Source: a virus
Strand: one strand, 5' to 3'
Length of the DNA: 57,188 nucleotides
IMG/VR virus record: IMGVR_UViG_3300032236_000645
Span: 1 to 57,188 of that record
Numbering within the stretch: position 1 is the first letter of the stretch; the number at the start of each line of letters is the position of its first letter. The notes beneath the pieces are model-generated. The model was not told where the DNA came from, ran no database searches, and worked only from the letters and a program-made list of their open reading frames with translations. Below, piece by piece: positions 43,808 through 56,845 of this stretch. Position numbers and translations under genes: made by a program.

Positions 43808-43836
43808 TTGTTTCTCTCCTGATTAAGTATGGGTCC

Positions 43837-43864
43837 ATCCTACACTAACTGGAGGGAAAGTCAA
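43837..43864 (-). promoter_or_regulatory. repeated early promoter (leftward)
   Basis: Minus strand GCTTGACTTTCC, 16-bp spacer, TAGGATGG (-10 at 43837-43842, -35 TTGACT at 43859-43864). One of the dispersed near-identical promoter copies; the -10 is weaker than in the others. Confidence 0.7.
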
Positions 43865-43878
43865 GCACTTTCGAGCCT

Positions 43879-44169
43879 TTATCGGCCTGTACCGAAGCCA
43901 TTCCAAACGCTACCATCTCGACCATCATAAGAAGTCACACCGCTGTCATGGTTATAACCAATCAATTCCCAAACATGGTTTTTCCATATTTTGAAGAATA
44001 CAAGCGGAGTAACCTTAGCTGGTTTGTCACTCTTCCGATTAATACTAATAAGCCACAATGTTACATCAAAAGACAATAACATGCCTCGAAGTATATGGTA
44101 AGCGATATAAGCAAGGATTAAACTTAATACACCTAAAGCGACAATACCAGTAATTTCTAACCAATTCAT
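43879..44169 (-). CDS. small membrane protein
   Basis: 96 aa, AAAGGAAAC upstream. One or two N-terminal TM segments (about 5-32), then a basic region with FFKIWKNHVWELIGYNHDSG. It has its own promoter copy at 44203-44230. No function known. Confidence 0.68.
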   Translation of the reverse strand: MNWLEITGIVALGVLSLILAYIAYHILRGMLLSFDVTLWLISINRKSDKPAKVTPLVFFKIWKNHVWELIGYNHDSGVTSYDGRDGSVWNGFGTGR

Positions 44170-44202
44170 TTTGTTTCCTTTGTTTCGTTAATCAATGGTT
44201 GG

Positions 44203-44230
44203 ATTATACAGAAACTGGAGGGAAAGTCAA
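44203..44230 (-). promoter_or_regulatory. repeated early promoter (leftward)
   Basis: TTGACT (44225-44230), 16-bp spacer, perfect TATAAT (44203-44208) on the minus strand. Confidence 0.88.
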
Positions 44231-44244
44231 GCACTAAATTGGTA

Positions 44245-44547
44245 TTAATAGCGGTGGCGGTAGCGAAAAGGAACAGGTTGGCCATGGTAGCTCGTATTGT
44301 AGACCGTTGTGCGGTCACCAGCTAAAATTGAGCCTACCACAATACCGCCAAGGGCACCAATAACCATGCCTTCGGTGCTTGACATTTGGCTCTGGGCCTG
44401 ATATACTGGCTGGCTTTGTTGGACTACCACTGGTTGGTCACAGCGATAGAGCTGGATGCCATTCTGGTCAAGGCCTACTGGCTGACAATCGGCCATGGCA
44501 CTGAATGAAAGGGAGGCTACTAGAGCGCCTGCAATTATTCTTTTCAT
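44245..44547 (-). CDS. secreted glycine-zipper protein
   Basis: 100 aa from ATG 44547, which has GGAG upstream; the longer frame is not credible. A signal peptide (about 1-19, ending AMA) is followed by a Gln/Val-rich segment and the glycine-zipper GALGGIVVGSILAG (about 65-78), typical of 2TM-glycine-zipper envelope proteins. Two Cys may pair. It may insert in the host outer membrane or periplasm early in infection, for example in superinfection exclusion; that is inference. Confidence 0.75.
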   Translation of the reverse strand: MKRIIAGALVASLSFSAMADCQPVGLDQNGIQLYRCDQPVVVQQSQPVYQAQSQMSSTEGMVIGALGGIVVGSILAGDRTTVYNTSYHGQPVPFRYRHRY

Positions 44548-44548
44548 A

Positions 44549-44704
44549 TTATACTCCACAAGCTTGATAAAATCTGGCAAAGTCAAAGCGAGGGTTGCTC
44601 TGACGGCAAACCTCTGCCATTTGGATCGCCATTGTTTTGCGCTCTACTAGATTGCTGATAGCGGCGATTTGGTCGGCGATAGCCTTAAAATCTTTTCTGG
44701 TCAT
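44549..44704 (-). CDS. small helical phage protein
   Basis: 51 aa starting at ATG 44704. The sequence TRKDFKAIADQIAAISNLVE leads to the C-terminal SNPRFDFARFYQACGV, a tail common to many small phage proteins of this kind. It ends one base before the glycine-zipper gene. A conserved hypothetical protein often seen in phages. Confidence 0.75.
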   Translation of the reverse strand: MTRKDFKAIADQIAAISNLVERKTMAIQMAEVCRQSNPRFDFARFYQACGV

Positions 44705-44705
44705 A

Positions 44706-44990
44706 TTATAAAACCTTTCCTGTAACATTATACTTATTTTTTAAGAATGCCAAGGCACTCTCTACGGTTGGTCGAGCAGCCTCTGTACGGCCATCACCAT
44801 TTACTGCCATAAACTTGCCACGTGCTTCTTTATAGAATACTGTAAATGGTTCAAGTTTGGCTTTTGGTGCTTTTGCCACTTTCACTGCCTTTGGTGCTTT
44901 CGCTTCTACTTTTACAGTAGCCTTAGCTTTCGCTGGCACTTTGACTGGTTTTGGTGCTACCACTTGGTTTACTAGATTTGATAAGTTCAT
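44706..44990 (-). CDS. small protein with C-terminal EAARPT domain (paralogue A)
   Basis: 94 aa from ATG 44990 (AGGAGAC upstream); the longer frame overlaps the promoter and is not real. A Lys/Ala/Val/Pro-rich linker (about 12-50) precedes a folded C-terminal domain with KFMAVNGDGRTEAARPT and ALAFLKNKYNVTGKV. This domain is closely similar to the C-terminus of the rightward gene at 47841. The linker could be disordered and basic, perhaps binding nucleic acid. Confidence 0.75.
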   Translation of the reverse strand: MNLSNLVNQVVAPKPVKVPAKAKATVKVEAKAPKAVKVAKAPKAKLEPFTVFYKEARGKFMAVNGDGRTEAARPTVESALAFLKNKYNVTGKVL

Positions 44991-45018
44991 TTTTTGTCTC
45001 CTGTTTAAGTATGTGTCC

Positions 45019-45046
45019 ATTATACATGGATTCCAGAAAAAGTCAA
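45019..45046 (-). promoter_or_regulatory. repeated early promoter (leftward)
   Basis: TTGACT (45041-45046), 16-bp spacer, TATAAT (45019-45024) on the minus strand. It drives the EAARPT-domain gene at 44990. Confidence 0.9.
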
Positions 45047-45049
45047 GCA

Positions 45050-45241
45050 TTATTTGGTTGCCATAATTGAAACATCAACCAAATCTAAGCCCACAAATTT
45101 AAGCATGGTTTCAATCTCGGCTTTGTTCATATGATCCAGAGCCACGGCCATCATATGGATCAAATCGTCATGCTCAATATGCTTTAGAGCCAGCTCTGTA
45201 TTTCTTCTGGCTTCGTATAGTTCGGTACTGGCTTGGCTCAT
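45050..45241 (-). CDS. small helical hypothetical protein
   Basis: 63 aa with AAAGAGAAAATC upstream. Helices SQASTELYEARRNTELALKH, then HMMAVALDHMNKAEIETML, and a short C-terminal strand. Single-gene cassette with its own promoter at 45271-45298. Confidence 0.62.
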   Translation of the reverse strand: MSQASTELYEARRNTELALKHIEHDDLIHMMAVALDHMNKAEIETMLKFVGLDLVDVSIMATK

Positions 45242-45270
45242 GATTTTCTCTTTCGTTTTAGTATGGTGCC

Positions 45271-45298
45271 ATTATACATGGATTCCAGAAAAAGTCAA
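45271..45298 (-). promoter_or_regulatory. repeated early promoter (leftward)
   Basis: TTGACT (45293-45298), 16-bp spacer, TATAAT (45271-45276) on the minus strand. The 16-bp spacer is identical to that of the copy at 45019-45046. Confidence 0.9.
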
Positions 45299-45321
45299 GC
45301 ACTTTATTGGTTTATTTTCGC

Positions 45322-45350
45322 TTGACTTTTCGAGCTGGCTGTGTTATACT
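45322..45350 (+). promoter_or_regulatory. promoter pointing antisense into gene 45349-45693
   Basis: TTGACT (45322-45327), 17-bp spacer, TATACT (45345-45350). It sits exactly at the 3' end of the leftward gene and faces into it, so it would make antisense RNA. Confidence 0.6.
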
Positions 45351-45693
45351 ATAAGGCTCTATTGACTACAAATTTAATATCTTCAAGAGCAGTCTGTAAG
45401 TCATTGATTCTGCACTCTTTTTCTTCTAGCTCTACTTCTAGTTCGGCCACTTGAAACTCTGTGCGACTGAGGACTAGCTGTAACTCATTGATTTCACTCT
45501 CTTTTTCTTCGTTATCTAAAGTGATGAGCCCGAAGTCTTTATCAAAAGCTTCTTGTAAGTCATTGATTTCTTTATCTTTTTGTTTGATAATGTCATCTAA
45601 TAATGCTAATTGATTAAGATAGTATAAGTCACTGTTTTGACTAGTTTTTTCAACATACTCTAAGCCGTTGATTACAATAGATAATTTTTTCAT
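45349..45693 (-). CDS. coiled-coil protein
   Basis: 114 aa from ATG 45693; the longer open frame runs through promoters and is spurious. It starts KKLSIVINGLEYVEKT, then a continuous Glu/Lys/Leu coiled coil (about 35-105) with three related units of the type K(E/D)x-INDLQ / SEINELQ / CRINDLQ. Two single-base-related repeats give it internal periodicity. Driven by the promoter at 45731-45758; an antisense promoter lies at its end. Confidence 0.7.
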   Translation of the reverse strand: MKKLSIVINGLEYVEKTSQNSDLYYLNQLALLDDIIKQKDKEINDLQEAFDKDFGLITLDNEEKESEINELQLVLSRTEFQVAELEVELEEKECRINDLQTALEDIKFVVNRAL

Positions 45694-45730
45694 AGTGTTT
45701 TCTCTTTCTGTTTCGTTATTCAATGATGCT

Positions 45731-45758
45731 ATTATACACTGATCCATAGAAAAGTCAA
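45731..45758 (-). promoter_or_regulatory. repeated early promoter (leftward)
   Basis: TTGACT (45753-45758), 16-bp spacer, TATAAT (45731-45736) on the minus strand, for the coiled-coil gene. Confidence 0.9.
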
Positions 45759-45791
45759 GCATTATTTCGGATTTTATTTGCAAAAAAGTGC

Positions 45792-45819
45792 TTGACTTTT
45801 TGGCCGGTTGTGATATAAT
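45792..45819 (+). promoter_or_regulatory. repeated early promoter (rightward, non-coding unit 1)
   Basis: TTGACT (45792-45797), 16-bp spacer, TATAAT (45814-45819). No ORF with an SD follows before the next promoter. Confidence 0.9.
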
Positions 45820-45898
45820 GGAACCACGCCACCCCTGCGTGCGGCTTCCACGATAAGTAAAACTTATTGATCCGTCGCAATCAATAAGAAAATAATGC
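45820..45898 (+). ncRNA. candidate structured small RNA 1
   Basis: Begins at the predicted transcript start. A hairpin pairs GGAA (45820-45823) with TTCC (45846-45849) and CACGC (45825-45829) with GCGTG (45837-45841), loop CACCCCT. Next come ATAAGT-AAA-ACTTAT and CTTATTGAT/ATCAATAAG inverted repeats (about 45853-45888). No gene is possible here. Confidence 0.5.
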
Positions 45899-45926
45899 TT
45901 GACTTTTGGTGTGGTTGTGTTATAAT
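45899..45926 (+). promoter_or_regulatory. repeated early promoter (rightward, non-coding unit 2)
   Basis: TTGACT (45899-45904), 16-bp spacer, TATAAT (45921-45926). Again no ORF with SD follows before the third promoter. Confidence 0.9.
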
Positions 45927-46034
45927 GGTTCCACAGTGAGAAAACAAAGAAACCCATGAGCCCACCCCCTGCGTGACGCTTTCGTAGCCCGCTAAGCTCT
46001 TGATTATAAAGAGAAAAATAAACCAAAATAATGC
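45927..46034 (+). ncRNA. candidate structured small RNA 2
   Basis: The segment shares CCACCCC-CTGCGTG-x-CG-CTT with unit 1 and has a GCGT-G-ACGC palindrome (45971-45979) and a CTCTT/AAGAG pair. No gene is visible; it ends at the third promoter. Confidence 0.45.
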
Positions 46035-46062
46035 TTGACTTTTTGGCCAATTGTGATAGAAT
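46035..46062 (+). promoter_or_regulatory. repeated early promoter (rightward, before the tandem repeat)
   Basis: TTGACT (46035-46040), 16-bp spacer, TAGAAT (46057-46062). It would transcribe the 28-bp tandem repeat region. Confidence 0.8.
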
Positions 46063-46094
46063 GGTGGTATTGTTGCGTATCTCAAAAACGCTCA

Positions 46095-46244
46095 GAAAAA
46101 ACTCAATGGAATCAAGAGCTTATGGGAGTGAGAAAAAACTCAATGGAATCAAGAGCTTACAAAAATCTCAATGAAATCAATGGGATAGATGAATTGCTAG
46201 TGAAATCAATGGGTTGGAGAAAACTGAATGAAATCAACGGCTTA
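46095..46244 (+). repeat. tandem 28-bp repeat with decayed copies
   Basis: Two exact 28-bp copies (46095-46122 and 46132-46159), each of the form GAAAAAACTCAATGGAATCA then AGAGCTTA, 37 bp apart. Degenerate copies follow up to about 46244 with AATGAAATCAA(T/C)GG as core. The 37-bp period is not a multiple of three, so this is not a protein repeat. Confidence 0.8.
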
Positions 46245-46395
46245 CAGAATATCGTTGTGGATCAATGAGTTGCGTTGAGTTGCTCTGGATCTGGTTGAGG
46301 AGCCGGCGGCAACCCGTTGAAAGAAAATAAAAAAATCTCGGCAACGAGTTTAACTCCACACGCTAACACACAATGCGACGCAGTTCCCGAGGTCA

Positions 46396-46410
46396 TAAGT
46401 AAAACTTATC
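46396..46410. repeat. ATAAGT-AAA-ACTTAT inverted repeat, second copy
   Basis: A perfect 6-bp inverted repeat with AAA loop, identical to the copy near 45853-45867. Both are followed by (T/C)(G/A)AT-rich sequence, so they may be one protein-binding site present twice. Confidence 0.55.
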
Positions 46411-46556
46411 AATCCAACGGTATTGATATCGCTTGGTATTGTATGGATTCTGTAAGGACGCTGTGGTACACTATGGACACTATCGGTGCTTACTAAGGCA
46501 TTGATTATAATAAGGTTTATATCTACTGTCCTTATACTATCAGGTAGCATATACGT

Positions 46557-46681
46557 TAACCTATTGATTATTATACTCTTATCCTCTACTGTATGGTAAG
46601 GTATTGATATCATTAAGGTAAGCATGAGGTAAACTTTTAGGTAATTATTTTTATTTTTATTGTTTTATAATCAATAGGTTA
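46557..46681. repeat. perfect 15-bp inverted repeat, 95 bp apart
   Basis: TAACCTATTGATTAT (46557-46571) and ATAATCAATAGGTTA (46667-46681) are exact inverses; adjacent bases extend the match to about 17 of 18. The loop contains GGTATTGATATC (also near 46418-46429), and AGGTAA motifs recur through 46595-46691. An origin or regulatory cruciform is possible. Confidence 0.75.
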
Positions 46682-46710
46682 GCGTCAGGTAAAAAATATG
46701 GTGATAATGC

Positions 46711-46738
46711 TTGACTTTCTCCGTGGATTCTGTATAAT
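46711..46738 (+). promoter_or_regulatory. repeated early promoter (rightward)
   Basis: TTGACT (46711-46716), 16-bp spacer, TATAAT (46733-46738), 28 bp before the ATG of the Gp88-like gene with GAGGAG in between. Confidence 0.92.
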
Positions 46739-46765
46739 GGACACATAAATTGATGAGGAGTTATT

Positions 46766-47515
46766 ATGAAGTTATTATCTACAGGCAACCCGAAAGTATT
46801 AAAGGGTATGAAGCAAGGTTATAATACCTATATTCTGCATCTTGCACCTGCTGATTTATCTGGTTATGAAACTTGTCCTAAACGGACTAAGGGATGCACT
46901 GGTGCTTGTTTGAATATGGCAGGACGTGGTGGTATTTTCAAAGTAGGCACTAACACCAATGTTATTCAGGAAGCACGTAAGCGCAAGACTCGTATGTTTT
47001 TTGAGGATCGTGGTCGTTTTATGACTGAATTGGTTGCCGATATTGAATTGGCCATCAAACAATCTGCTAAGTTAGGATTGGTGCCTGTGTTCCGCTTGAA
47101 TGGTACTTCGGACTTATCGTTTGAAAAGTATGAGGTGGTTCGTGGTGGTGTTGGTTATAAGAATATCTTTGAGGCATTCAGTGAGGTACAATTCTATGAT
47201 TATACCAAGGTACTAGGTCGCAAAGTTTCAGGTATCAAAAATTATCACCTAACCTTCTCAGCAGCAGACGGTAACGATAAGGACGTATTGAAAGCAATAG
47301 CACAAGGTTATAATATCGCTATGGTTTTCGGTATCAATAAAAAGTTACCATTGCCTACTGATTATCTCGGTTTACCTGTTTTTAATGGTGATGAAAGCGA
47401 TTTGAGATTTTTAGATCCACGTGGTGTTATCGTTGGTTTGTATGCCAAAGGTAAGGCTACTAAAGATACTAGTGGTTTTGTAAAATATCCAACAATTATG
47501 TTAAAGGCAGCCTAA
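46766..47515 (+). CDS. Gp88-like conserved phage protein
   Basis: 249 aa behind GAGGAG. It begins LLSTGNPKVLKGMKQGYNTY and has a Cys cluster CPKRTKGCTGACLN near 38-51, then mixed alpha/beta regions with VFRLNGTSDLSFE near 110-122. The pattern (start with GNxK, Cys cluster, RLNGTSD) fits the Gp88/DUF7227-like family of phage and plasmid proteins, which I recall being linked to rolling-circle replication. It is the first gene of the rightward early array. Activity unknown. Confidence 0.75.
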   Translation: MKLLSTGNPKVLKGMKQGYNTYILHLAPADLSGYETCPKRTKGCTGACLNMAGRGGIFKVGTNTNVIQEARKRKTRMFFEDRGRFMTELVADIELAIKQSAKLGLVPVFRLNGTSDLSFEKYEVVRGGVGYKNIFEAFSEVQFYDYTKVLGRKVSGIKNYHLTFSAADGNDKDVLKAIAQGYNIAMVFGINKKLPLPTDYLGLPVFNGDESDLRFLDPRGVIVGLYAKGKATKDTSGFVKYPTIMLKAA

Positions 47516-47516
47516 T

Positions 47517-47777
47517 ATGTTTTTATTAAAAGATTATATCAGCAGAGGTACTACCAATCGTGGTTTGAATTTCCCACGAGCATCTATGTATCATGGCATA
47601 CCAATGGATAAGCTCGAGGTAACAAAAGTGGTACTTGCCAATCTATATCCAGAAGGTAAATTCCGTATTAGGTATCGTGGTAAGCGTGCTGGCTATCGTG
47701 ATGGTAGGACTCGGACTCAACACCAACAGGATTGCTTGAAACAATACGCAGAATCCTTTGCTGTTTACTATAGATAA
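47517..47777 (+). CDS. small basic protein
   Basis: 86 aa, one base after the Gp88-like gene. Very basic, with FRIRYRGKRAGYRDGRTRTQ near 48-67, suggesting nucleic-acid binding. No family recognised. It shares the promoter at 46711. Confidence 0.65.
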   Translation: MFLLKDYISRGTTNRGLNFPRASMYHGIPMDKLEVTKVVLANLYPEGKFRIRYRGKRAGYRDGRTRTQHQQDCLKQYAESFAVYYR

Positions 47778-47780
47778 TGC

Positions 47781-47808
47781 TTGACTTATTCCGTGGTTGT
47801 GTTACCAT
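47781..47808 (+). promoter_or_regulatory. repeated early promoter (rightward), decayed -10
   Basis: TTGACT (47781-47786), 16-bp spacer, TACCAT (47803-47808). Conserved flanks show it is a family member; the -10 is likely weak. A GGAG-type SD follows before the ATG at 47841. Confidence 0.65.
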
Positions 47809-47840
47809 GGTTACACTAAATTGATGACGGAGATTATATT

Positions 47841-48290
47841 ATGAATACCCAATTATTAGAAAAGTATGAGGTTCAACCGTTTGCCAACCCAGCGGAGACT
47901 GAGTATTTTATCAAGTACCTAGAGCAAGGCGAGCGCAAAGGCCTCGAAGGTTTGGCCAATGTGGTGTATGCTCGGACTTCTACTACCGAACTATTCAAAA
48001 CCTTACCTCACCTCAAAACCAAGTATGATACAGAACCAGTGCCTAAAGCATTGAAAGCTATCAAACCTCAGGTAACAAAGTCAGTAGTCACTAAGGTAGC
48101 AAAAGTAAAAGCACCTAAGGTACAGATTTTCGGTGATGGTGCCGTATACTTCCGACCAGACCGTAACAAGTGGATGGCAGTATACAATGGCAAGGCAGAA
48201 GCAGCACGACCAACCTCAGCTGCTGCCTTGGCATTCTTAAAGAAAAAGTATGATATTGATGGTTATGTTGTTGATAAAATTGAGGACTAA
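47841..48290 (+). CDS. protein with C-terminal EAARPT domain (paralogue B)
   Basis: 149 aa. The N-terminal region (about 1-70) is unique, then a Lys/Val/Pro-rich linker (about 70-93). The C-terminal domain has KWMAVYNGKAEAARPT and ALAFLKKKYDIDGYV, closely similar to the leftward gene at 44706-44990. The shared domain on both sides of the hub suggests duplication or exchange. The function is unknown. Confidence 0.75.
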   Translation: MNTQLLEKYEVQPFANPAETEYFIKYLEQGERKGLEGLANVVYARTSTTELFKTLPHLKTKYDTEPVPKALKAIKPQVTKSVVTKVAKVKAPKVQIFGDGAVYFRPDRNKWMAVYNGKAEAARPTSAAALAFLKKKYDIDGYVVDKIED

Positions 48291-48292
48291 TT

Positions 48293-48520
48293 ATGACCAA
48301 AGAAATTAAATTGCCGTTTGATTGCACGGTGTATGATGACGAACCACAATTGGTACAAAACCCTTTTAGTGGTGAGACCGTGATGTTGGAACCAATGGCT
48401 ATTGCCGTGTATGATACGGTGATGGGTGCCAATATGATTGGTGACTATAAGACCGTGCAAAAAGGCGTGACATGGTTCCGTAAGTATTTCCCTAAAGAAT
48501 ACATGGTATTATTAGATTAA
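48293..48520 (+). CDS. small hypothetical protein
   Basis: 75 aa, two bases after the previous gene. Mixed alpha/beta, with LPFDCTVYDDEPQLVQNPFSG at the start and a final KYFPKEYMVLLD. No family recognised; part of a run of six short genes (47841-49320). Confidence 0.62.
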   Translation: MTKEIKLPFDCTVYDDEPQLVQNPFSGETVMLEPMAIAVYDTVMGANMIGDYKTVQKGVTWFRKYFPKEYMVLLD

Positions 48521-48530
48521 GGTAAAAATT

Positions 48531-48746
48531 ATGAGATTTGCTCAATTTGAAACAGTAAGTGGTAGTCAGGTAACTATTTTCTTCACTGATAAGGTAACGG
48601 TACACCAATACTACCGAAACCGTGATGGTGGGGATGCCGTATGTGTTATGGATGGTCTACACAATAACGGTGGTTGGGAAGTCAAAGGTACATACCAAGA
48701 GGTAGTGGATAAAATTATGTATGCAAATGAAATGGGAGTGAAATAA
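48531..48746 (+). CDS. small hypothetical protein
   Basis: 71 aa. Starts FAQFETVSGSQVTIFFTDKV, with strands leading to VKGTYQEVVDKI; it looks like a small beta-sandwich or Trp-containing domain. It overlaps the next gene by one base (TAATG). Confidence 0.62.
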   Translation: MRFAQFETVSGSQVTIFFTDKVTVHQYYRNRDGGDAVCVMDGLHNNGGWEVKGTYQEVVDKIMYANEMGVK

Positions 48747-48928
48747 TGAGAGCTGTGGTATATTTGGCAGTAGAATTGGAATATGATAGTTCAGTTTTGG
48801 AAGGTGAGGTAGACCAATACGCCTATGAATTGATGGGAACATTGGCTAGTAACTTCCCAACACCTCCAGCTGGTGTGACGGTAGAGCAAGTAAGATTTGA
48901 TAGCAATGGTGTTGTGGTTTTTGATTGA
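48746..48928 (+). CDS. small acidic protein
   Basis: 60 aa, coupled to the upstream gene by TAATG. Acidic, with VYLAVELEYDSSVLEGEVDQ at the start and a hydrophobic C-terminus. No family recognised. Confidence 0.6.
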   Translation: MRAVVYLAVELEYDSSVLEGEVDQYAYELMGTLASNFPTPPAGVTVEQVRFDSNGVVVFD

Positions 48929-48936
48929 GGTAAAAA

Positions 48937-49113
48937 ATGGCTAAAGGTGATATGGTATACTTGGTGACCAGTTATGGCCGCCATTCTGGTGATGTTGAAA
49001 ACCTTAGGATATATGAGAGTTTGGTTGAGGCTCAATCATTCAAGGATATATTACAAGAGCAGATTGGTATTGATAATTGCATCATTAGTGTTGATAGCTT
49101 TACATTGGAGTAA
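48937..49113 (+). CDS. small hypothetical protein
   Basis: 58 aa read from ATG 48937, with GAGGTAAAAA upstream. Sequence begins AKGDMVYLVTSYGRHSGDVE and ends ISVDSFTLE, mixed alpha/beta. It fills the gap between two annotated genes without overlap and is in the same short-gene run. Confidence 0.65.
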   Translation: MAKGDMVYLVTSYGRHSGDVENLRIYESLVEAQSFKDILQEQIGIDNCIISVDSFTLE

Positions 49114-49116
49114 TAT

Positions 49117-49320
49117 ATGGAAATGTCCGAATATATCAATGAGCAAAACCTCAAGGCGAAACATGACCTTGAAAAGGATATTGCCTATAAGATGGCCAGT
49201 GTAGTGGCCAATCATATCATTAGCCATTATGTGGATGACAAGTTTTATTCGGATGCTCACAATAGTTGGCCTGCTAGGTTTGAGGAAGCTTATAATAGAA
49301 TGTATGGCGAAAGTGCTTGA
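49117..49320 (+). CDS. small hypothetical protein
   Basis: 67 aa, 3 bp after the previous stop with GGAG upstream. Helical with Lys/Glu-rich start, then VVANHIISHYVDDKFYSDAH. The 3' end overlaps the -35 of the next promoter copy. Confidence 0.62.
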   Translation: MEMSEYINEQNLKAKHDLEKDIAYKMASVVANHIISHYVDDKFYSDAHNSWPARFEEAYNRMYGESA

Positions 49321-49344
49321 CTTTTGCCTTGGTTGTGATACAAT
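49317..49344 (+). promoter_or_regulatory. repeated early promoter (rightward)
   Basis: TTGACT (49317-49322), 16-bp spacer, TACAAT (49339-49344), 29 bp before the ATG at 49373. The flanks follow the family consensus. Confidence 0.82.
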
Positions 49345-49372
49345 GGCCACATATTGATACGGAGATTATATT

Positions 49373-49600
49373 ATGTTTATTGATACAAATGTTTTTGATT
49401 ATGGTTTTGAAGGCCGTTGCCCATCTAAGGCACAAGTGACCAAAGTGGCACGAGCTGGTATGCAGTCAGGTGCCACTAACATTGAGATTTGGTGGGGTGA
49501 AAACATGATTGAGATCCAGAAGGCATACAATGGCTCTTGGTTCGGTCGTGGTTGGATCCGTTCAATTAGTGGCCAAGATTTGGCAGAGGAGTTATCCTAG
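49373..49600 (+). CDS. small hypothetical protein
   Basis: 75 aa with CGGAGATTATATT upstream. Starts FIDTNVFDYGFEGRCPSKAQ; the middle has GATNIEIWWGENMIEIQK and the end RSISGQDLAEELS. Alpha/beta, one Cys. Single-gene cassette followed by the homing-endonuclease insertion. Confidence 0.62.
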   Translation: MFIDTNVFDYGFEGRCPSKAQVTKVARAGMQSGATNIEIWWGENMIEIQKAYNGSWFGRGWIRSISGQDLAEELS

Positions 49601-49630
49601 GTGGTGTTTATTAGGTTAGTGAGTTAGGAT

Positions 49631-49638: not shown

Positions 49639-49642
49639 AGGC

Positions 49643-50356
49643 ATGATATACACAATTTATAAAGCCTATAACACAATCAATGGTAAATCCTATATTGGAT
49701 TTGATTCCTCTTGGCCTAATAGAATGAAAGACCATGGTAATAGATGTATGACTATGGATTCAGCATTCTATTCAGCTATCCGAAAACATGGTTGGATGAA
49801 TTTTGTTTGGACAGTATTATATCAATCAAAAGACAAAGACCATACCAAAAATATCATGGAAGAATACTTTATCCGTGATTACAATAGCCATGTGAATGAT
49901 AACGGATACAATATGACCTATGGTGGTGATGGTGTATCAGGACAAAGTGATGAAACAAAATGGAAACAAGGGTCATCTAATAGAGGCAAGATAAAGGGGC
50001 CAATGAGTGATGAAACCAAACAAAAGATTGGTTTGGCCAATAGTCAAAAGAAAAGAACCGAAGCTGAAAAAGAGCACTTAAGGCAGTTGAATATAGGCAA
50101 AAAACAAAGTGATGAAACTAAACTAAAAAAGAGTTTGGTATTGAAAGGAAGAAAATCCAATCCACAAGCTGTTCGTGCCTTAGTTGAAAAAATCAGCCTT
50201 GACTGGATTGTGACAACACCTAATGGCCAAACCTTAGAGGTTAGGAATTTGGCTAAATTTTGTATTGAAAATGATTTGAATTATAAGAAAATGCAATCAG
50301 TCGGAAATGGGAAATACAAACAACACAAAGGTTATAAAGTTTCAAAAAGTGCTTGA
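49643..50356 (+). CDS. GIY-YIG homing endonuclease with NUMOD3-type repeats
   Basis: 237 aa. GIY-YIG core near 1-40: YTIYKAYNTINGKSYIGFDS with the second Y-I-G at 17-19 and the Arg of the family at about 26, and a Glu near 72 in MEEYFIRDY as metal ligand. C-terminal DNA-binding region with repeated (Q/S)SDETKxK-type NUMOD3 motifs near 110-185 and a last helix-turn-helix-like part. It is a free-standing mobile endonuclease. A perfect late element lies just upstream, as with T4 homing enzymes. Confidence 0.88.
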   Translation: MIYTIYKAYNTINGKSYIGFDSSWPNRMKDHGNRCMTMDSAFYSAIRKHGWMNFVWTVLYQSKDKDHTKNIMEEYFIRDYNSHVNDNGYNMTYGGDGVSGQSDETKWKQGSSNRGKIKGPMSDETKQKIGLANSQKKRTEAEKEHLRQLNIGKKQSDETKLKKSLVLKGRKSNPQAVRALVEKISLDWIVTTPNGQTLEVRNLAKFCIENDLNYKKMQSVGNGKYKQHKGYKVSKSA

Positions 50357-50380
50357 CTTTTACCACAATTAGTGTATAAT
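50353..50380 (+). promoter_or_regulatory. repeated early promoter (rightward)
   Basis: TTGACT (50353-50358), 16-bp spacer, TATAAT (50375-50380). It drives the gene starting at 50408. Confidence 0.92.
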
Positions 50381-50407
50381 GGTTACATAATTTGATTGGA
50401 GATGTAT

Positions 50408-50821
50408 ATGAGTGAAAAATTTGTAATGAAGGCAGGAACATACTACCTTGGCGATTTATGTTACTGTATGCACGCTGAATGGAAAGAGGTCTGTGGCCTA
50501 TTGTTTGCAGGCCGTGATGACCATGGTTGTAATGAAGGTGTATTCAATCTAAAAGACGGCCGTACCTTTGCCATATACAATACGGCCTTTGGTGATGGTG
50601 TGTACCTAGATAATTTTGGTGCTGAGTATATGGTTGACGCTGGTTGCATTGGTTGTATCAAAGTAAGTGACATTGACCTTGATAATCCAGACAATTTCCT
50701 AACAGGCGGACAGATTGTCGGCTTTGATAATGATTTTAATGTTGATACGGACGGTGCCTTGTTGACCTTTGGCCATATCCGTATTGACACCGACCCTTAT
50801 TATGAGGATGATGAGGAATAA
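50408..50821 (+). CDS. acidic hypothetical protein
   Basis: 137 aa from ATG 50408 with GGAG upstream; the upstream in-frame ATG at 50396 is inside the promoter leader. The middle contains DGRTFAIYNTAFGDGVYLDN and the tail is very acidic (DTDPYYEDDEE). Several Cys (LCYCMHAEW, AGCIGCIK) may bind metal. It overlaps the next gene by one base. Confidence 0.68.
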   Translation: MSEKFVMKAGTYYLGDLCYCMHAEWKEVCGLLFAGRDDHGCNEGVFNLKDGRTFAIYNTAFGDGVYLDNFGAEYMVDAGCIGCIKVSDIDLDNPDNFLTGGQIVGFDNDFNVDTDGALLTFGHIRIDTDPYYEDDEE

Positions 50822-51241: not shown

Positions 51242-51408
51242 CATATAAAGACCTATTGCTACGCCTGAGTGCCATGAGCAACGAGGAACTAGAGATGACA
51301 GCAACGGTATGGGTATCAGATACGGACGAGTTTTGGAGTGTCCGTTATGTGTTGGAAAATCCAGAGGCTGATGTGCTTGATTTAGGCCATCCATATATGG
51401 CCATTTAG
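51238..51408 (+). CDS. small acidic protein
   Basis: 56 aa read from ATG 51238 (ATGA overlap). TYKDLLLRLSAMSNEELEMT, then a Trp-rich stretch TVWVSDTDEFWSVRYV, ending GHPYMAI. Helical acidic character. It ends just before the next promoter copy. Confidence 0.66.
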   Translation: MTYKDLLLRLSAMSNEELEMTATVWVSDTDEFWSVRYVLENPEADVLDLGHPYMAI

Positions 51409-51411
51409 TGC

Positions 51412-51439
51412 TTGACTTTTGCCACCATTGTGATATAAT
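51412..51439 (+). promoter_or_regulatory. repeated early promoter (rightward)
   Basis: TTGACT (51412-51417), 16-bp spacer, TATAAT (51434-51439). Confidence 0.92.
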
Positions 51440-51466
51440 GGTTACTTAATTGATACGGAGATTATT

Positions 51467-51715
51467 ATGAAAATTGAACAAACAGGCAAACGAGTATTCC
51501 AACCAATCACCATTACAATACAGACTGAGAGAGAGGCTGAGATTGTAATGGCTATCATGTCACGCATTGGTGGTGATATGTATGAGTCCCCACGTTATAT
51601 CGCTGATGTGATATACAATGAGTTATTAAAATTTGGTATTGATTATCGGAATGATAAATTCAAAGAAAAATTCCCAGCACGTGGTTCAGTCCAGTTTGAG
51701 AATTTTCAATACTAG
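51467..51715 (+). CDS. small hypothetical protein
   Basis: 82 aa with CGGAGATTATT upstream. Starts KIEQTGKRVFQPITITIQTE, a beta-rich N-terminus, followed by helix EIVMAIMSRIGGDMYESPRY. Single-gene cassette. No family recognised. Confidence 0.65.
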   Translation: MKIEQTGKRVFQPITITIQTEREAEIVMAIMSRIGGDMYESPRYIADVIYNELLKFGIDYRNDKFKEKFPARGSVQFENFQY

Positions 51716-51718
51716 TGC

Positions 51719-51746
51719 TTGACTTTTACCATGGTTCATGTATAAT
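51719..51746 (+). promoter_or_regulatory. repeated early promoter (rightward)
   Basis: TTGACT (51719-51724), 16-bp spacer, TATAAT (51741-51746). It drives the DUF1281-like gene. Confidence 0.92.
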
Positions 51747-51775
51747 GGCCACATACTAACACAGGAGATAATGAT

Positions 51776-52330
51776 ATGCCAAATTGGTGCTCAAACGGTT
51801 TAACCCTTTCACATGATGACCCAGCGATGATTACAAAAGCTGCTGAGGCTCTCAAAGCAGGCAATTTCCTTGATACATTTATTCCAATTCCTGCTGAGTT
51901 GAAAGAGACCACATCACCAGCTAAAGAGGGTTCACCAAGTGTGGAGTTTAATGGTACACAATATAGTGACTGGTATTCATTCTGTGTAAATGAATGGGGC
52001 ACCAAGTGGGATATTGAGTCCTACAATGATCCAGAAATATCGGAGAGTGGTCTTTCATTAGATGCCTCCTTTGATACGGCATGGTCACCACCTATCGAAG
52101 CGTACCGTAAGTTGGACGAGATGGGGTTTACAGTCAAGGCCGTATACTATGAGCCTGGCATGGGTTTCTGTGGTGATTATTCCACTGATGGTGATGAGCA
52201 ATTCTATGATTACAGTGGCCTAAGTGCTGATGAAGCAGAGGCAGAGATTCCTGAATACATTAACGAGTATTTTAACATCACAGAGTTTATGCGTGAATGG
52301 GAAGAGGAACAGATTGGAGATGATGAATAA
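51776..52330 (+). CDS. DUF1281-like (Api92/ferredoxin-like fold) protein
   Basis: 184 aa. The start MPNWCSNGLTL is the signature of the DUF1281/Api92-like group found in phages and plasmids, followed by an alpha/beta domain. AFDTAWSPPIEAYRKL-type segment (DTAWSPP near 102) and acidic C-terminus (MREWEEEQIGDDE) are also typical. No enzymatic activity is established; related proteins occur among early host-takeover genes. It overlaps the next gene by one base. Confidence 0.8.
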   Translation: MPNWCSNGLTLSHDDPAMITKAAEALKAGNFLDTFIPIPAELKETTSPAKEGSPSVEFNGTQYSDWYSFCVNEWGTKWDIESYNDPEISESGLSLDASFDTAWSPPIEAYRKLDEMGFTVKAVYYEPGMGFCGDYSTDGDEQFYDYSGLSADEAEAEIPEYINEYFNITEFMREWEEEQIGDDE

Positions 52331-52482
52331 TGGGTTTCTTTACGGCTCTTGGCTTAATCTTTATAACCCTTAAATTGATGGGGTTTATTACATGGTCATG
52401 GTGGTTGGTTCTATTGCCGCTCTATGCTGATATTCTAATTTTATTGACTATTGTTATTGGTGCCATTGTTTCGCTGGTATAA
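52330..52482 (+). CDS. very small membrane protein
   Basis: 50 aa read from ATG 52330, sharing one base (TAATG) with the upstream stop. Almost entirely hydrophobic with two Trp (MGFFTALGLIFITLKLMGF, then WWLVLLPLYADILILL), so one or two TM helices. A common type of phage small membrane protein. Confidence 0.68.
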   Translation: MGFFTALGLIFITLKLMGFITWSWWLVLLPLYADILILLTIVIGAIVSLV

Positions 52483-52490
52483 AATAATGC

Positions 52491-52518
52491 TTGACTTTTG
52501 CCATGGTTGGTGTATAAT
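52491..52518 (+). promoter_or_regulatory. repeated early promoter (rightward)
   Basis: TTGACT (52491-52496), 16-bp spacer, TATAAT (52513-52518). Confidence 0.92.
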
Positions 52519-52547
52519 GGACACATACTGAATAAGGAGACAAAAAG

Positions 52548-52739
52548 ATGGATATCAAAACAGCGTGTGACTATGTATCAAAATTGGCAAATAAGCATGA
52601 TACAGGCATCCTTGAAGTGTTGATTGATTATAAGAATGGTATTGACGAGTCTGGTTTTAACCATGACTTGACTATTGATGAAAATTTGGCTTGCCGTGTG
52701 TTTATGGCAGCTGGTGCTCAAATGTTTGCGGAGGTGTAA
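52548..52739 (+). CDS. small hypothetical protein
   Basis: 63 aa behind AAGGAG. Starts DIKTACDYVSKLANKHDTGI, acidic and mixed; the last part ENLACRVFMAAGAQMFAEV looks helical. It is one base from the next gene. Confidence 0.65.
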   Translation: MDIKTACDYVSKLANKHDTGILEVLIDYKNGIDESGFNHDLTIDENLACRVFMAAGAQMFAEV

Positions 52740-52740
52740 T

Positions 52741-53430
52741 ATGGGAACACGTAGCTTAACTTATGTGTATGATAGTTATAAAAATGAACAAGGCAATAAG
52801 GTAAACGTACCGATTGTATGCCTATACCGCCAATATGATGGTTATGTTGATGGCCATGGTGCTGAATTAGCTGATTTTCTTGCCAATGGTAAAATTGTCA
52901 ATGGTATTGGTATTGATGAGGCTGAAGGTGTATGGAATGGCATGGGGTGCCTTGCGGCTAGTCTAGTTGCTTACTTCAAAAAAGAGCCAGGTAACTTCTA
53001 CCTTCATGCACCAATCCTTAATCGTGATGACTGGCAAGAGTTTGAGTACCATGTATTTGCTGACAAGGTGATTGTGTATGCTATTGGTTCAAACAATGAT
53101 AATGTATTGTTTGAAGGCGACTATCGAGCCTTTGCTAAGTTCTGTTGGGGCTCAAATGATAATGTAGATGGTTCAAAGAGCATTGAGGTAGATGACCAAG
53201 ATGCTGTTAAGGAAGCACTACAAGCAGGTGAAGTGGTGGTGACTTTTGTTAAGAAAGATGGTAACAACCGTGTAATGCGTGGCACTACACATCCAGGTAT
53301 CATTCCTGAGCAGTTCACACCTAAAGGTACACGAGCTCATTCAGGTGATGTTCAACCAATTTTTGACCTAGACGAACAACACTGGAAGTCTTTCCGTTGG
53401 GATAGTCTAGTATCAGTAAAGGCGGCATAA
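52741..53430 (+). CDS. two-domain phage protein with C-terminal SH3-like barrel
   Basis: 229 aa from ATG 52741; the longer frame lies inside the upstream gene. N-terminal domain starts GTRSLTYVYDSYKN and has CLYRQYDGYVDGHG near 27-40, then NGMGCLAASLVAYFK. The C-terminal part VVVTFVKKDGNNRVMRGTT and DLDEQHWKSFRWDSL (about 180-226) has the pattern of phage SH3-like beta-barrel proteins. Common in T4-like early regions. It overlaps the next gene by one base. Confidence 0.75.
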   Translation: MGTRSLTYVYDSYKNEQGNKVNVPIVCLYRQYDGYVDGHGAELADFLANGKIVNGIGIDEAEGVWNGMGCLAASLVAYFKKEPGNFYLHAPILNRDDWQEFEYHVFADKVIVYAIGSNNDNVLFEGDYRAFAKFCWGSNDNVDGSKSIEVDDQDAVKEALQAGEVVVTFVKKDGNNRVMRGTTHPGIIPEQFTPKGTRAHSGDVQPIFDLDEQHWKSFRWDSLVSVKAA

Positions 53431-53588
53431 TGTGGTACTTTATTAGATTTATTCTGTTATGGTGTGCCATGCTAACTGTATTGGCACACTATAATGTACC
53501 ACCTATTGGTATGTGGATTGCTTACATAATCTATATCCTACATGGTTGGAATGAAATTTTCGATTGTTATAGAAAGTGGTTAAAATAA
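53430..53588 (+). CDS. very small membrane protein
   Basis: 52 aa from ATG 53430, coupled by TAATG on both sides. Two hydrophobic helices (about 5-20, 27-40) and a short basic tail (DCYRKWLK). Function unknown. Confidence 0.66.
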   Translation: MWYFIRFILLWCAMLTVLAHYNVPPIGMWIAYIIYILHGWNEIFDCYRKWLK

Positions 53589-54166
53589 TGGGATATCAAT
53601 ACGCTATTGACACTACACAACCACACCTTGGTGGTAACTTGGTTGAAGGTGATTATAACACCTTCTCACCGAGTGTGTGGGATTATGTGACTGACAGGTT
53701 TGCTCTTAAGAGCGTCCTTGATTTGGGTTGCGGTCTAGGTTACTCTAGCCATTACTTTCATAAAAAAGGATTGAATGTTGTTGCGGTTGATGGTATGTTG
53801 GAAAATGTAACCAATTCGGTATATCCATCATTGTTGGTTGACCTGACAAAGGATAAGATTACAACCAAAGTGGATTTGGTGTATTGTGTTGAAGTTGTTG
53901 AGCACATTGAGGAACAATACCTTGACAACCTATTAGCATCCCTTGCTTGTGGTAAGTTCATACTAATGACTAATGCTTTGCCAGGTCAAGGCGGTCACCA
54001 TCATGTGAATGAGCAACACACCGACTATTGGATTGAGCATCTTAAACGATATAATTGTGAATACTTGCCTGGCGACTCGGATAAGATTAAGAAGTTGGCA
54101 GACATTGATGGTGCTTGGTGGATTAGACAGACCGGCTCTATATTTGTGAACAGAAACTTTGATTAA
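53588..54166 (+). CDS. class I SAM-dependent methyltransferase
   Basis: 192 aa from ATG 53588 (TAATG overlap). SAM-binding motif I VLDLGCGLGYSS at 43-54, the acidic residue VAVDGMLEN near 66, and YCVEVVEHIEE near 99, all in the Rossmann-methyltransferase order. The target could be DNA, protein or a small molecule. It is the only clear enzyme of its run; the neighbours are small hypotheticals. Confidence 0.85.
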   Translation: MGYQYAIDTTQPHLGGNLVEGDYNTFSPSVWDYVTDRFALKSVLDLGCGLGYSSHYFHKKGLNVVAVDGMLENVTNSVYPSLLVDLTKDKITTKVDLVYCVEVVEHIEEQYLDNLLASLACGKFILMTNALPGQGGHHHVNEQHTDYWIEHLKRYNCEYLPGDSDKIKKLADIDGAWWIRQTGSIFVNRNFD

Positions 54167-54175
54167 AGGATTTAT

Positions 54176-54340
54176 ATGAGTTATATGAAAAATCTATACG
54201 AGGATATTTGGGAGATGCACTGCTCTGACCCAATGATGGATAACTTAAGGATCGCTGAGATGCTTGATTGTCCACTTGATTGGGTTGAGAGTGCATTGAA
54301 AGACCACTACGATAATTTAGCCGAACGGAACGGTCACTAA
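54176..54340 (+). CDS. small acidic helical protein
   Basis: 54 aa read from ATG 54176 with AAAGGA upstream. SYMKNLYEDIWEMHCSDPMM followed by LRIAEMLDCPLDWVESALKD looks like a helix-turn-helix-type module. It ends immediately before the next ATG. Confidence 0.66.
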   Translation: MSYMKNLYEDIWEMHCSDPMMDNLRIAEMLDCPLDWVESALKDHYDNLAERNGH

Positions 54341-54544
54341 ATGGAAAACATTGAGTTGAGGTGGGTTGAGAGACCATTTATTATACCGAACGGCCAATTT
54401 GGTGCCGGTATGACTGATACAATCAAAGTATTACAATACCGTAAGTATTATGATAGTAGTGCCTATGCGGGTCTTTATGATGTGCATTTCCCTAATAGCT
54501 TACAATGGTCGGAATGGACTGATGTACCTACAACAATAGAATAA
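54341..54544 (+). CDS. small hypothetical protein
   Basis: 67 aa starting directly after the upstream stop. Pattern ENIELRWVERPFIIPNGQFG then VLQYRKYYDSSAYAG and WSEWTDVPT suggests a small beta-rich, Trp-containing domain. No family recognised. Confidence 0.62.
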   Translation: MENIELRWVERPFIIPNGQFGAGMTDTIKVLQYRKYYDSSAYAGLYDVHFPNSLQWSEWTDVPTTIE

Positions 54545-54556
54545 TAAGGATAATAT

Positions 54557-54793
54557 ATGACTGAACCATTAGTATTCATTGGGAAACCTAATGTAAACAA
54601 TATGTTGCATGCAAAAGAGTTTGATACTCCCAAGAAAGCCGTTGACTATATCAACAGCCTATTGCCTGATGACTACCCCACAATACCATTGGAAGATGCC
54701 TTCTTGATTGGTAAAGTGTATGAAAAGTCTGGCAATACAGATTGGTTAGCAAAAAAGAAACCCGTTGGTAGACCTAAGAAAGTGAGAAAATAA
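54557..54793 (+). CDS. small hypothetical protein
   Basis: 78 aa behind AAGGATAATAT. Starts TEPLVFIGKPNVNNMLHAKE; the basic tail AKKKPVGRPKKVRK has an AT-hook-like core (VGRPKK) that may contact DNA. One-base overlap with the next gene. Confidence 0.66.
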   Translation: MTEPLVFIGKPNVNNMLHAKEFDTPKKAVDYINSLLPDDYPTIPLEDAFLIGKVYEKSGNTDWLAKKKPVGRPKKVRK

Positions 54794-54942
54794 TGTTTAA
54801 TAATGTATATTTTAGAGTGTTTGTTGGTATTGTTAGTATTGGCCTATTGGCTAGTTCTTTCTATTGGGGTGTATACAAACATGACTATGCTCAAGCGTGT
54901 TATGATATCCTATTGGTCATGTTGATGGACAAAGGTGACTGA
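54793..54942 (+). CDS. very small membrane protein
   Basis: 49 aa from ATG 54793. One TM helix (about 8-25) with FRVFVGIVSIGLLASSFYW, then a short polar and hydrophobic tail. Coupled by TGATG to the next gene. Confidence 0.64.
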   Translation: MFNNVYFRVFVGIVSIGLLASSFYWGVYKHDYAQACYDILLVMLMDKGD

Positions 54943-55334
54943 TGCCTTGGTATGCAGTATTAAAAATGTTACCCGCTGGTTACGATAATAGAGTCCAGCA
55001 GGTTTGGTATCTTGATAAGACATACAGAGTGTCCTCACATAATCAAGAGACCACGGCAGTCCACACACCTCACCTTGAAACTAAAGTGTGGTACTTAAAC
55101 AAAAACATGGCAAGGCGCCTGTTTGATAAGCCTTACTATGTGTTTGAGCAAGATGATGTTGCCCAAGAGGATGAATTCGTGATGCAACCGTACCATAAAC
55201 AGGCCATTGCTGCTTATAAGCAATACAAGCAGGAAGAATTGGATCAAAGGTTGAAATATAACCAAGAAATTGGCGACATCAAACGAGAAGTTGAGAAACT
55301 TCGTAGCGGTGGTTGGTCATACGATAATATCTAA
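54942..55334 (+). CDS. hypothetical protein
   Basis: 130 aa. Starts PWYAVLKMLPAGYDNRVQQV, beta-rich with several Trp/Tyr, then a C-terminal coiled-coil (YKQYKQEELDQRLKYN). TGATG coupling to the upstream membrane protein. It precedes the 200-bp non-coding RNA region. Confidence 0.65.
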   Translation: MPWYAVLKMLPAGYDNRVQQVWYLDKTYRVSSHNQETTAVHTPHLETKVWYLNKNMARRLFDKPYYVFEQDDVAQEDEFVMQPYHKQAIAAYKQYKQEELDQRLKYNQEIGDIKREVEKLRSGGWSYDNI

Positions 55335-55341
55335 ATGGCTC

Positions 55342-55369
55342 TTGACAAGAGTGCCAATTAGTGTATAAT
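55342..55369 (+). promoter_or_regulatory. early promoter driving a non-coding unit
   Basis: TTGACA (55342-55347), 16-bp spacer, TATAAT (55364-55369): best -35 of the family. The downstream 120 bp hold hairpins and no ORF. Confidence 0.9.
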
Positions 55370-55489
55370 CCACTATGCTTCCCAATGATATGAATACCTA
55401 GGGGCTCCAAAGCCCCAATACCCCTATTGGTTTAGATATATCACCAAAACTAAACTCATGGTTTAGTTCCAATCACAATAATAAACTGC
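55370..55489 (+). ncRNA. candidate structured small RNA
   Basis: Three hairpin pairs fit in a row: GGGGCT-CCAA-AGCCCC (55401-55416), CCAATA-CCCC-TATTGG (55415-55430, alternative to the first at two bases), and AACTAAAC-TCATG-GTTTAGTT (55448-55468). All are perfect. No gene can be placed here, and the next promoter begins at 55490. Confidence 0.6.
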
Positions 55490-55517
55490 TTGACTTTTGC
55501 CATTATTCGTGTATAAT
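55490..55517 (+). promoter_or_regulatory. repeated early promoter (rightward)
   Basis: TTGACT (55490-55495), 16-bp spacer, TATAAT (55512-55517), 27 bp before the ATG at 55544. Confidence 0.92.
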
Positions 55518-55543
55518 GGTTACATAATTTGAAAGGACATAGT

Positions 55544-55996
55544 ATGGCGGATCCAGTAACACCAAGCACATTAGATAAGATGATTACATTGGCTGTCAAG
55601 GCTCACAGAGGACAAGTGGACAAAGGCGGGATGCCATATATTCTACACCCATTGGCCGTGATGGGCATGATTAGTTCTACTGATGACATTGAATTGCTTT
55701 GTATTGCAGTAGGCCATGACCTATTAGAGGACACAGAAGTTACCGAGAAAACTCTCGGTGAATGGGGTTTCACTGACCGTGTGATTGATGGTATTATAGC
55801 ACTGACAAAGATGGATGGTGAACCTTACGAGTTATACAAATACAGAGTGAAGGCAAACCCCGATGCTGTTAGAGTTAAGATATGTGACCTATCACACAAC
55901 ATGGACTTATCACGATTAGGTCGTAAGCCTACTGATGCTGAAGTTGAACGATATGAGCGATATGCAAAATTTAAGTTGGAGTTGTTAGAATTATGA
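55544..55996 (+). CDS. SpoT/MESH1-like HD hydrolase
   Basis: 150 aa from ATG 55544 with AAAGGA upstream; a TTG 15 nt earlier is less likely. HD-domain motifs: H21 in AHRGQVDKGGMPYILHP (H35), H58-D59 with E62-D63 in GHDLLEDT, and KICDLSHNMDLSRL near 111, matching the order in SpoT-type (p)ppGpp 3'-hydrolases. It would lower alarmone levels in the infected cell. A broad nucleotide-hydrolase role is an alternative. It overlaps the PTP-like gene by 4 bp. Confidence 0.85.
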   Translation: MADPVTPSTLDKMITLAVKAHRGQVDKGGMPYILHPLAVMGMISSTDDIELLCIAVGHDLLEDTEVTEKTLGEWGFTDRVIDGIIALTKMDGEPYELYKYRVKANPDAVRVKICDLSHNMDLSRLGRKPTDAEVERYERYAKFKLELLEL

Positions 55997-56415
55997 TAAA
56001 AAGAAACCAATTAGGAGTGTTGTTTAATTCATTCCAAGGGAAATACAAGAAAGTATTATGTGTATGCTCGGCTGGGTGCCTACGAAGTCCAACAGCGGCA
56101 CATATACTATCGAGTCCACCTTGGAACTTTAACACTAGGGCAGTTGGATTGTCTAAAGAGTATGCTATTGTGCCTATTACAGATGCCTTAATTGCATGGG
56201 CTGATATTATTATTGTAATGGATAGTGATATGGTTAAACAGGTCAATGATATGCAAGTTGCATTGGCAAGTAACTACGACAGTACCTTTGAGATGGATTA
56301 TAAGCAAGTATTTAACCTTGAGATTGAGGATGATTATGACTATAGGCATCCAGACTTGGTTAAGATTATGACTGCTAAATTTACAGAGATGTTTGGAGAT
56401 GGAAATGAAGCGTAG
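55993..56415 (+). CDS. low-molecular-weight protein tyrosine phosphatase-like protein
   Basis: 140 aa. The P-loop C25-SAGCL-R31-S (C-x5-R-S) and a later acidic DDYDYRHPDL region near 114-123 fit LMW-PTP. Position of the catalytic Cys after a strand VLCVC is right. It is ATGA-coupled to the HD hydrolase, so the two may act together on host signalling. Substrate unknown. Confidence 0.8.
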   Translation: MIKRNQLGVLFNSFQGKYKKVLCVCSAGCLRSPTAAHILSSPPWNFNTRAVGLSKEYAIVPITDALIAWADIIIVMDSDMVKQVNDMQVALASNYDSTFEMDYKQVFNLEIEDDYDYRHPDLVKIMTAKFTEMFGDGNEA

Positions 56416-56578
56416 CGAGTTGTTACAGGTGTTGGAGTTTTATGCTAACCAGAAAAATTGGCAATCACCTTCAACCGGTTTTGCGGCACAATATGATCCA
56501 GAGCCATCACCTATTGATAAAGACAAGGGATTGATGGCACGTTTGGCTATTAAAAGTTTGGAAGACGGTGAAGTATGA
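56405..56578 (+). CDS. small hypothetical phage protein
   Basis: 57 aa from ATG 56405 (GGAG upstream; two further in-frame upstream starts are possible). Starts KRSELLQVLEFYANQKNWQS and contains a Pro/Asp-rich middle. It overlaps both neighbours (11 bp and 4 bp). Similar small proteins occur in many phages. Confidence 0.66.
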   Translation: MKRSELLQVLEFYANQKNWQSPSTGFAAQYDPEPSPIDKDKGLMARLAIKSLEDGEV

Positions 56579-56808
56579 GCATTATCATTCACAATATATC
56601 AGGCGATGACTTTGATGTCACTGGTCTAAACAAGTACCAAGTCCGTATCAATCAAAAGGTTATTGCTGAGTTTGAGCATACACGCTCAGATGGTTTGGCA
56701 GAGTGCCTACGAAAGGCCGCTATTGCTGTTGAACAACCAGACCGACTTGAGAATACAAACGATAAGGAATTGTTAGAATTTATCATAAAAACAGCTCATG
56801 CTTTTTGA
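56575..56808 (+). CDS. small hypothetical protein
   Basis: 77 aa, ATGA-coupled to the upstream gene. Starts SIIIHNISGDDFDVTGLNKY, then ECLRKAAIAVEQPDRLEN and an acidic/helical end. Alpha/beta, one Cys. No family recognised. Confidence 0.65.
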   Translation: MSIIIHNISGDDFDVTGLNKYQVRINQKVIAEFEHTRSDGLAECLRKAAIAVEQPDRLENTNDKELLEFIIKTAHAF

Positions 56809-56817
56809 AAATAATGC

Positions 56818-56845
56818 TTGACTTTTGCCACTATTAGTGTATAAT
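56818..56845 (+). promoter_or_regulatory. repeated early promoter (rightward)
   Basis: TTGACT (56818-56823), 16-bp spacer, TATAAT (56840-56845), 27 bp before the ATG at 56872. Confidence 0.92.

Follow-up and report, generated by a model that had tools for sequence, protein, structure and literature searches.

A dispersed family of early-type promoters, mostly without stem-loops, among the small genes of an uncultured T4-like phage

The DNA analysed here, all 57,188 nucleotides of it and hereafter the window, comes from an IMG/VR virus record (IMGVR_UViG_3300032236_000645, positions 1 to 57,188). It encodes a family-B DNA polymerase, a DnaB-like helicase, a T4-type RNase H and a ribonucleotide reductase; its polymerase, helicase and RNase H are of T4 type and identify the phage as T4-like. 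The polymerase is ~52% identical to those of cyanophages, and a megablast search of the early region against phage records returned no match to any annotated phage at the DNA level. The closest useful relative is G002 (IMGVR_UViG_3300006104_000016), a 71-kb record that is colinear with the window across most of 5-42 kb, has a DNA polymerase 72% identical to that of the window and carries a promoter array at the same place. A scan for relatives of window 50396-50821 confirmed none, and a peptidase scan yielded a single distant locus. Four small early genes gave weak family matches, namely to an Api92-like DUF1281 protein (51776-52330), a WYL_2 protein (52678-53430), a methyltransferase (53588-54166) and an HD-type phosphohydrolase (55544-55996, phrog_990). 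At the other end of the window lie a tRNA found by Rfam (147-222, plus strand, 52 bits) and missed by ARAGORN, and a protein of the phage that combines a CHASE2 sensor domain with an adenylate/guanylate cyclase domain (231-2270, minus strand; PF05226, PF00211; phrog_35576).

The small-gene region between 43,835 and 56,847 holds every one of 17 copies of a promoter family, with zero in the rest of the window. Copies were defined with an iterated position-weight matrix, on which they score 38-62 bits against a null maximum of ~6; 12 lie on the plus and five on the minus strand, in agreement with the count of at least 16 copies on both strands made in an earlier sequence-only reading. The exact motif TTGACTTT-N14-TATAAT occurs at 13 sites in the window against 0.02 expected from shuffles. 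The copies, each named by the first base of its -35, and one related promoter are as follows.

43835..43867, minus strand: copy 43864, by matrix; degenerate -10 TAGGAT; followed by gene 43592-43807
44201..44233, minus strand: copy 44230, by exact motif and matrix; followed by gene 43879-44169
45017..45049, minus strand: copy 45046, by exact motif and matrix; upstream stop TAA within the conserved flank
45269..45301, minus strand: copy 45298, by exact motif and matrix; followed by gene 45050-45241
45729..45761, minus strand: copy 45758, by exact motif and matrix; back-to-back with plus-strand copy 45792
45789..45821, plus strand: copy 45792, by exact motif and matrix; no downstream ribosome-binding site or gene
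45896..45928, plus strand: copy 45899, by exact motif and matrix; upstream hairpins
46032..46064, plus strand: copy 46035, by matrix; -10 TAGAAT; no clear downstream gene
46708..46740, plus strand: copy 46711, by exact motif and matrix; gp88-family gene 46766-47515
47778..47810, plus strand: copy 47781, by matrix; degenerate -10 TACCAT; upstream stop TAA within the conserved flank
49314..49346, plus strand: copy 49317, by matrix; -10 TACAAT; upstream stop TGA within TTGAC
50350..50382, plus strand: copy 50353, by exact motif and matrix; stop TGA of the upstream gene within TTGAC
51409..51441, plus strand: copy 51412, by exact motif and matrix; upstream stop TAG within the conserved flank
51716..51748, plus strand: copy 51719, by exact motif and matrix; upstream stop TAG within the conserved flank
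52488..52520, plus strand: copy 52491, by exact motif and matrix
55487..55519, plus strand: copy 55490, by exact motif and matrix; 150-nt upstream gap with two hairpins
56815..56847, plus strand: copy 56818, by exact motif and matrix
55342..55369, plus strand: related promoter TTGACAAGAGTGCCAATTAGTGTATAAT, without the TGC flank

Two related promoters were left uncounted, that at 55,342 (TTGACA-16-TATAAT) and another at 45,322 with 17-nt spacing. All 17 copies share TGCTTGACTT, followed by a spacer and then TATAATGG. The -10 is a perfect TATAAT in 13 copies, with one mismatch in two and two mismatches in two, and GG stands directly 3' of it in 15. The spacer, counted from TTGACT, is 16 nt long, as had been proposed; its reported TTxxTG ending is the commonest one, while six copies end instead in TGTGA or TGTGT (TGn-TATAAT). 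The start site is usually CA; numbering the last base of the -10 as -7 puts this conserved dinucleotide at -1/+1. The ACATA and GGAGA Shine-Dalgarno described as frequent are present as ACATA in eight copies and a GGAG-type sequence in ten, and in copies that have a gene the Shine-Dalgarno is followed by an ATG 49-65 nt from the -35. Three copies (45792, 45899 and 46035) have no obvious gene downstream, and the gene upstream of copy 50353 encodes a GIY-YIG/NUMOD3 homing endonuclease (49643-50356).

Column identity over the 17 aligned copies bears out the claim that their similarity extends beyond the hexamers. From a background of ~0.27 it rises to 0.49 at -10 to -6 and to 0.88-1.0 over TGCTTGAC, falls back to 0.37 within the spacer, recovers to ~0.9 at the -10 and ~0.5 over the start site, and is again at background (~0.3) some 55 nt after the start of the -35. 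The likeness thus has a sharp onset ~9-10 nt before the -35 and extends as far as the ribosome-binding site. The copies had been called near-identical; this holds for the core, whereas over 50 nt the mean pairwise identity is 0.66. In 10 of the 17 copies the stop codon of the upstream reading frame lies at most 15 nt from the -35, a gap without room for a stem-loop terminator, and in six the conserved block includes the stop itself (TAA, TAG or the TGA of TTGAC), so that the unit is a compact joint of stop, promoter, ribosome-binding site and start. Such a joint, of ~65 bp, runs from an A-rich flank, often with a stop, through the -35 TTGACT, a 16-nt spacer with TG before the -10, TATAAT, a GG discriminator and a CA start site to the Shine-Dalgarno and the ATG.

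These are host-type promoters heading small operons of a T4-like phage, as in a T4-type early-promoter array, and host sigma-70 RNA polymerase would be expected to transcribe each small operon strongly right after infection; the early timing is presumed by analogy with T4. The early promoters (Pe) of T4 likewise comprise many strong promoters for the host polymerase placed before small early operons. They differ in their consensus GTTTAC and longer spacing, and they are less alike, with a mean identity of 0.43 for 13 early-promoter-like sites handled in the same way against 0.66 in the window. The T4 consensus, too, reaches beyond the -35 and -10 (Pe; PMC2988021). A weak blastn match (E value ~2) between a single cassette and intergenic sites in T4-like coliphages was ignored.

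Why the copies resemble one another is a separate question from whether genes move between them. Core identity within genomes differs from that between the window and G002 by only 0.011 (p=0.06), so contacts with RNA polymerase explain the core, and the core lends no support to recent mobility. It may be, then, that constraint accounts for everything, each copy having independently kept an optimal sigma-70 promoter with zero copying or recombination, and the conserved positions do agree with known polymerase contacts: the A-tract of a proximal UP element, the -35, the extended -10, the GG discriminator and the pyrimidine-purine start. Yet the variation outside these positions is correlated. 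At spacer positions 9-15, 18 and 19, which are non-contact positions, the most similar pair in the window reaches 1.00 against a null of 0.75 (p=0.009), and the variance at such positions is in excess in both the window and G002 (p<0.001). Leader positions 37-50 show a similar excess of structure, and similarity of spacer correlates with similarity of leader (r=0.28, p=0.004). Copies 45046 and 45298, 252 bp apart, have identical 28-nt cores, while the leader of 45046 is of the type found in 43864 and 52491, which suggests, without proving, a chimeric origin for 45046. We therefore regard constraint by itself as unlikely: the spacer-leader link speaks against it, and the non-contact statistics have already weakened it. 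Because the subfamily structure falls at positions that the polymerase does not read, it suggests some copying between promoters, although the spacer subfamilies could instead be functional classes or reflect binding of a regulator. The start-site region is clearly genome-specific (difference 0.111, p=0.0002, window versus G002). Similarity of the upstream flanks of window copies does not follow that of spacer and leader, and distance between copies bears no relation to their similarity. For the promoter of gp88, copies from the same genome exceeded non-orthologous ones (p=8e-5) and did not exceed orthologous ones (p=0.84), and hence there is no clear sign of genome-wide concerted evolution.

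The regulator just mentioned, from phage or host, would be a MotA-like activator or a repressor that reads the conserved spacer and TGC flank and switches the early set. The TGC upstream of the -35 is invariant and is not known to be a polymerase contact. In T4 middle promoters, which go with motA and asiA genes, a MotA box centred at -30 replaces the -35; the window copies have an intact -35. Their AATGCTT resembles the T4 MotA box, wwTGCTTta (PMC2988021), but the TGCTT sits ~4 bp further upstream than a MotA box would. A distinct spacer family characterises every phage lineage examined: the other lineages in which gene 51776-52330 has a homologue (L302, L308-L313, L318, L320 and L327) each carry a separate family of near-identical promoters whose spacers are conserved, for example TGCTTGACAGGTTGTCCAAAATGTGCTATAATTGAGGCATAG. 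Against this, most spacer positions are weakly conserved, and a MotA/AsiA search of the window and eight relatives gave zero matches, which, as it was run without a positive control, we do not count as absence. On balance a regulator site is highly improbable.

The array had also been likened to the PeSL cassettes described for T4-type phages (Arbiol 2010; Comeau 2014; both as cited in PMC4503421). The comparison is apt in that this is a dispersed early-promoter family of a T4-like phage: as in PeSL cassettes, the promoters look like strong sigma-70-type early promoters, as far as sequence can tell, and many copies lie within a region of variable small genes, where they could serve as short homology. 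It fails on the defining stem-loop terminator joined to the promoter, which most copies lack, the unit here running from stop codon to start codon. Of 20 window promoters, 4 have a perfect stem of at least 6 bp in the 45 nt before them, and 4 of 20 control segments contain such a stem; the region has 8 terminator-like sites against 9.8 expected, and the upstream flanks of the window copies are not alike at all. A few single copies do have hairpins upstream, among them 55490, 51412 (6 bp, just upstream) and 45899, which has a 9-bp hairpin directly before the -35 and a second, ATAAGT-AAA-ACTTAT, starting 46 nt upstream of it. The ATAAGTAAAACTTAT found 46 nt upstream of 45899 also stands 47 nt upstream of a promoter of the L028/L035 group.

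Relatives present a different picture. A TGTTGY...RCAACA hairpin lies directly 5' of early promoters in L121, L131, L152, L071, L148, L147, L136 and others, and 107 of 244 such hairpins fall at most 70 nt upstream of a promoter, against ~2% at random positions. These units share with the window the type of early promoter and the region adjoining gp88, and differ from it in the conserved hairpin directly upstream, absent from the window and G002. They are PeSL-like, although any role in termination is putative, since the hairpins have no T-run; with hairpin and promoter joined and the stem conserved in uncultured T4-like phages, the PeSL model can be tested well beyond the phages for which it was proposed. 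It is nevertheless very unlikely that PeSL cassettes proper, mobile units of promoter and stem-loop terminator, account for most of the gene shuffling here, given the hairpin counts in the window and the placement of indels described below. By its sequence, the window array belongs with the T4-type early-promoter arrays, as a variant that lacks stem-loops, and is not PeSL by definition.

Shuffling of small genes by recombination, the last element of the sequence-only reading, is seen in part, and directly in relatives only. The order of early-gene homologues around gp88 differs among the window, G002 and many relatives, with the homologues of 47517 and 50396 swapped between the window and G002. 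The position of copy 46711 is kept in relatives, and in 46 of 81 loci a promoter lies 27-37 nt upstream of the gp88 start codon. Promoter-to-promoter deletion or insertion is directly visible in two pairs of related contigs. Where L102 has promoter, gene and promoter, L123 has one promoter, whose left half is that of the first L102 promoter and whose right half, with its gene, is that of the second; L283 and L286 differ by a one-gene indel with a chimeric promoter and a shared joint of ~65 bp. Enrichment at promoters did not emerge, however. Among T4-like relatives, indel ends fell at promoters in 16% of cases at gp88 loci (gene-junction control 14-20%) and in 10% at polymerase-region loci (control 11-13%), no preference in either; of 49 clean indels, only 1 was bounded by promoters on both sides, and an indel in L064, a sister of G002, lay away from any promoter. 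Another phage group showed a weak preference (51% against 35-45% in the gene-junction control); the enrichment of 46% against 12% at random positions that a first test, run with no gene-junction control, had suggested for this group was rejected. Recombination between promoter copies can drop a gene, as related phages show, yet nothing suggests that this is what the copies are chiefly for: early promoters can move genes and leave chimeras behind, but in the T4-like relatives tested breaks do not favour them. As a search for contigs close to the window in the early region found no close sister, movement of genes in this genome, and recombination between its own copies, we infer from relatives, a difference from PeSL cassettes.

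Taken together, the array probably consists of early promoters set among the variable small genes of an uncultured T4-like phage, with some copying or recombination between joints. Polymerase contacts would keep the near-identical core in every copy, whereas in the less constrained spacer and leader some copies may have descended from one another or exchanged pieces. Being short repeats, two such joints could undergo homologous recombination and thereby delete or insert the intervening gene, leaving a chimeric promoter. More tentatively, the stop-to-start joint without a stem-loop might itself be a unit of gene exchange, with lineages keeping their own promoter set; recombination inside the shared 50-65 bp would then swap genes complete with stop codon, promoter and ribosome-binding site. 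If this is true, PeSL-type shuffling would also take in phages that lack stem-loops.

Downstream of the three plus-strand promoters without a gene, window 45820-46710 is mostly non-coding, and the short non-coding segment after copy 45792 contains CCACCCCTGCGTG. The block holds two copies of a CC-CCCCTGCGTG motif that also occurs in G002 between tandem promoters before gp88. An Rfam search of the block gave no match; its segment 45824-45895 folds better than shuffles (z -2.9), and the block is a candidate source of small RNAs. A repeat of ATAAGTAAAACTTAT plus a second hairpin lies at 45853-45886 and again at 46395-46428, where it is followed by an apparent decayed promoter, CGCTTGGTATTGTATGGATTCTGTAAGGACG. 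Between 55342 and 55480, a promoter is followed by ~120 nt without a gene and with two hairpins, up to promoter 55490, and may give rise to a short transcript. Finally, the element AATGRAATCAAnRGCTTA has three copies in the window (46105, 46142 and 46227), and in L071, L238, L239 and L121 it stands directly 5' of hairpin-promoter units or promoters.
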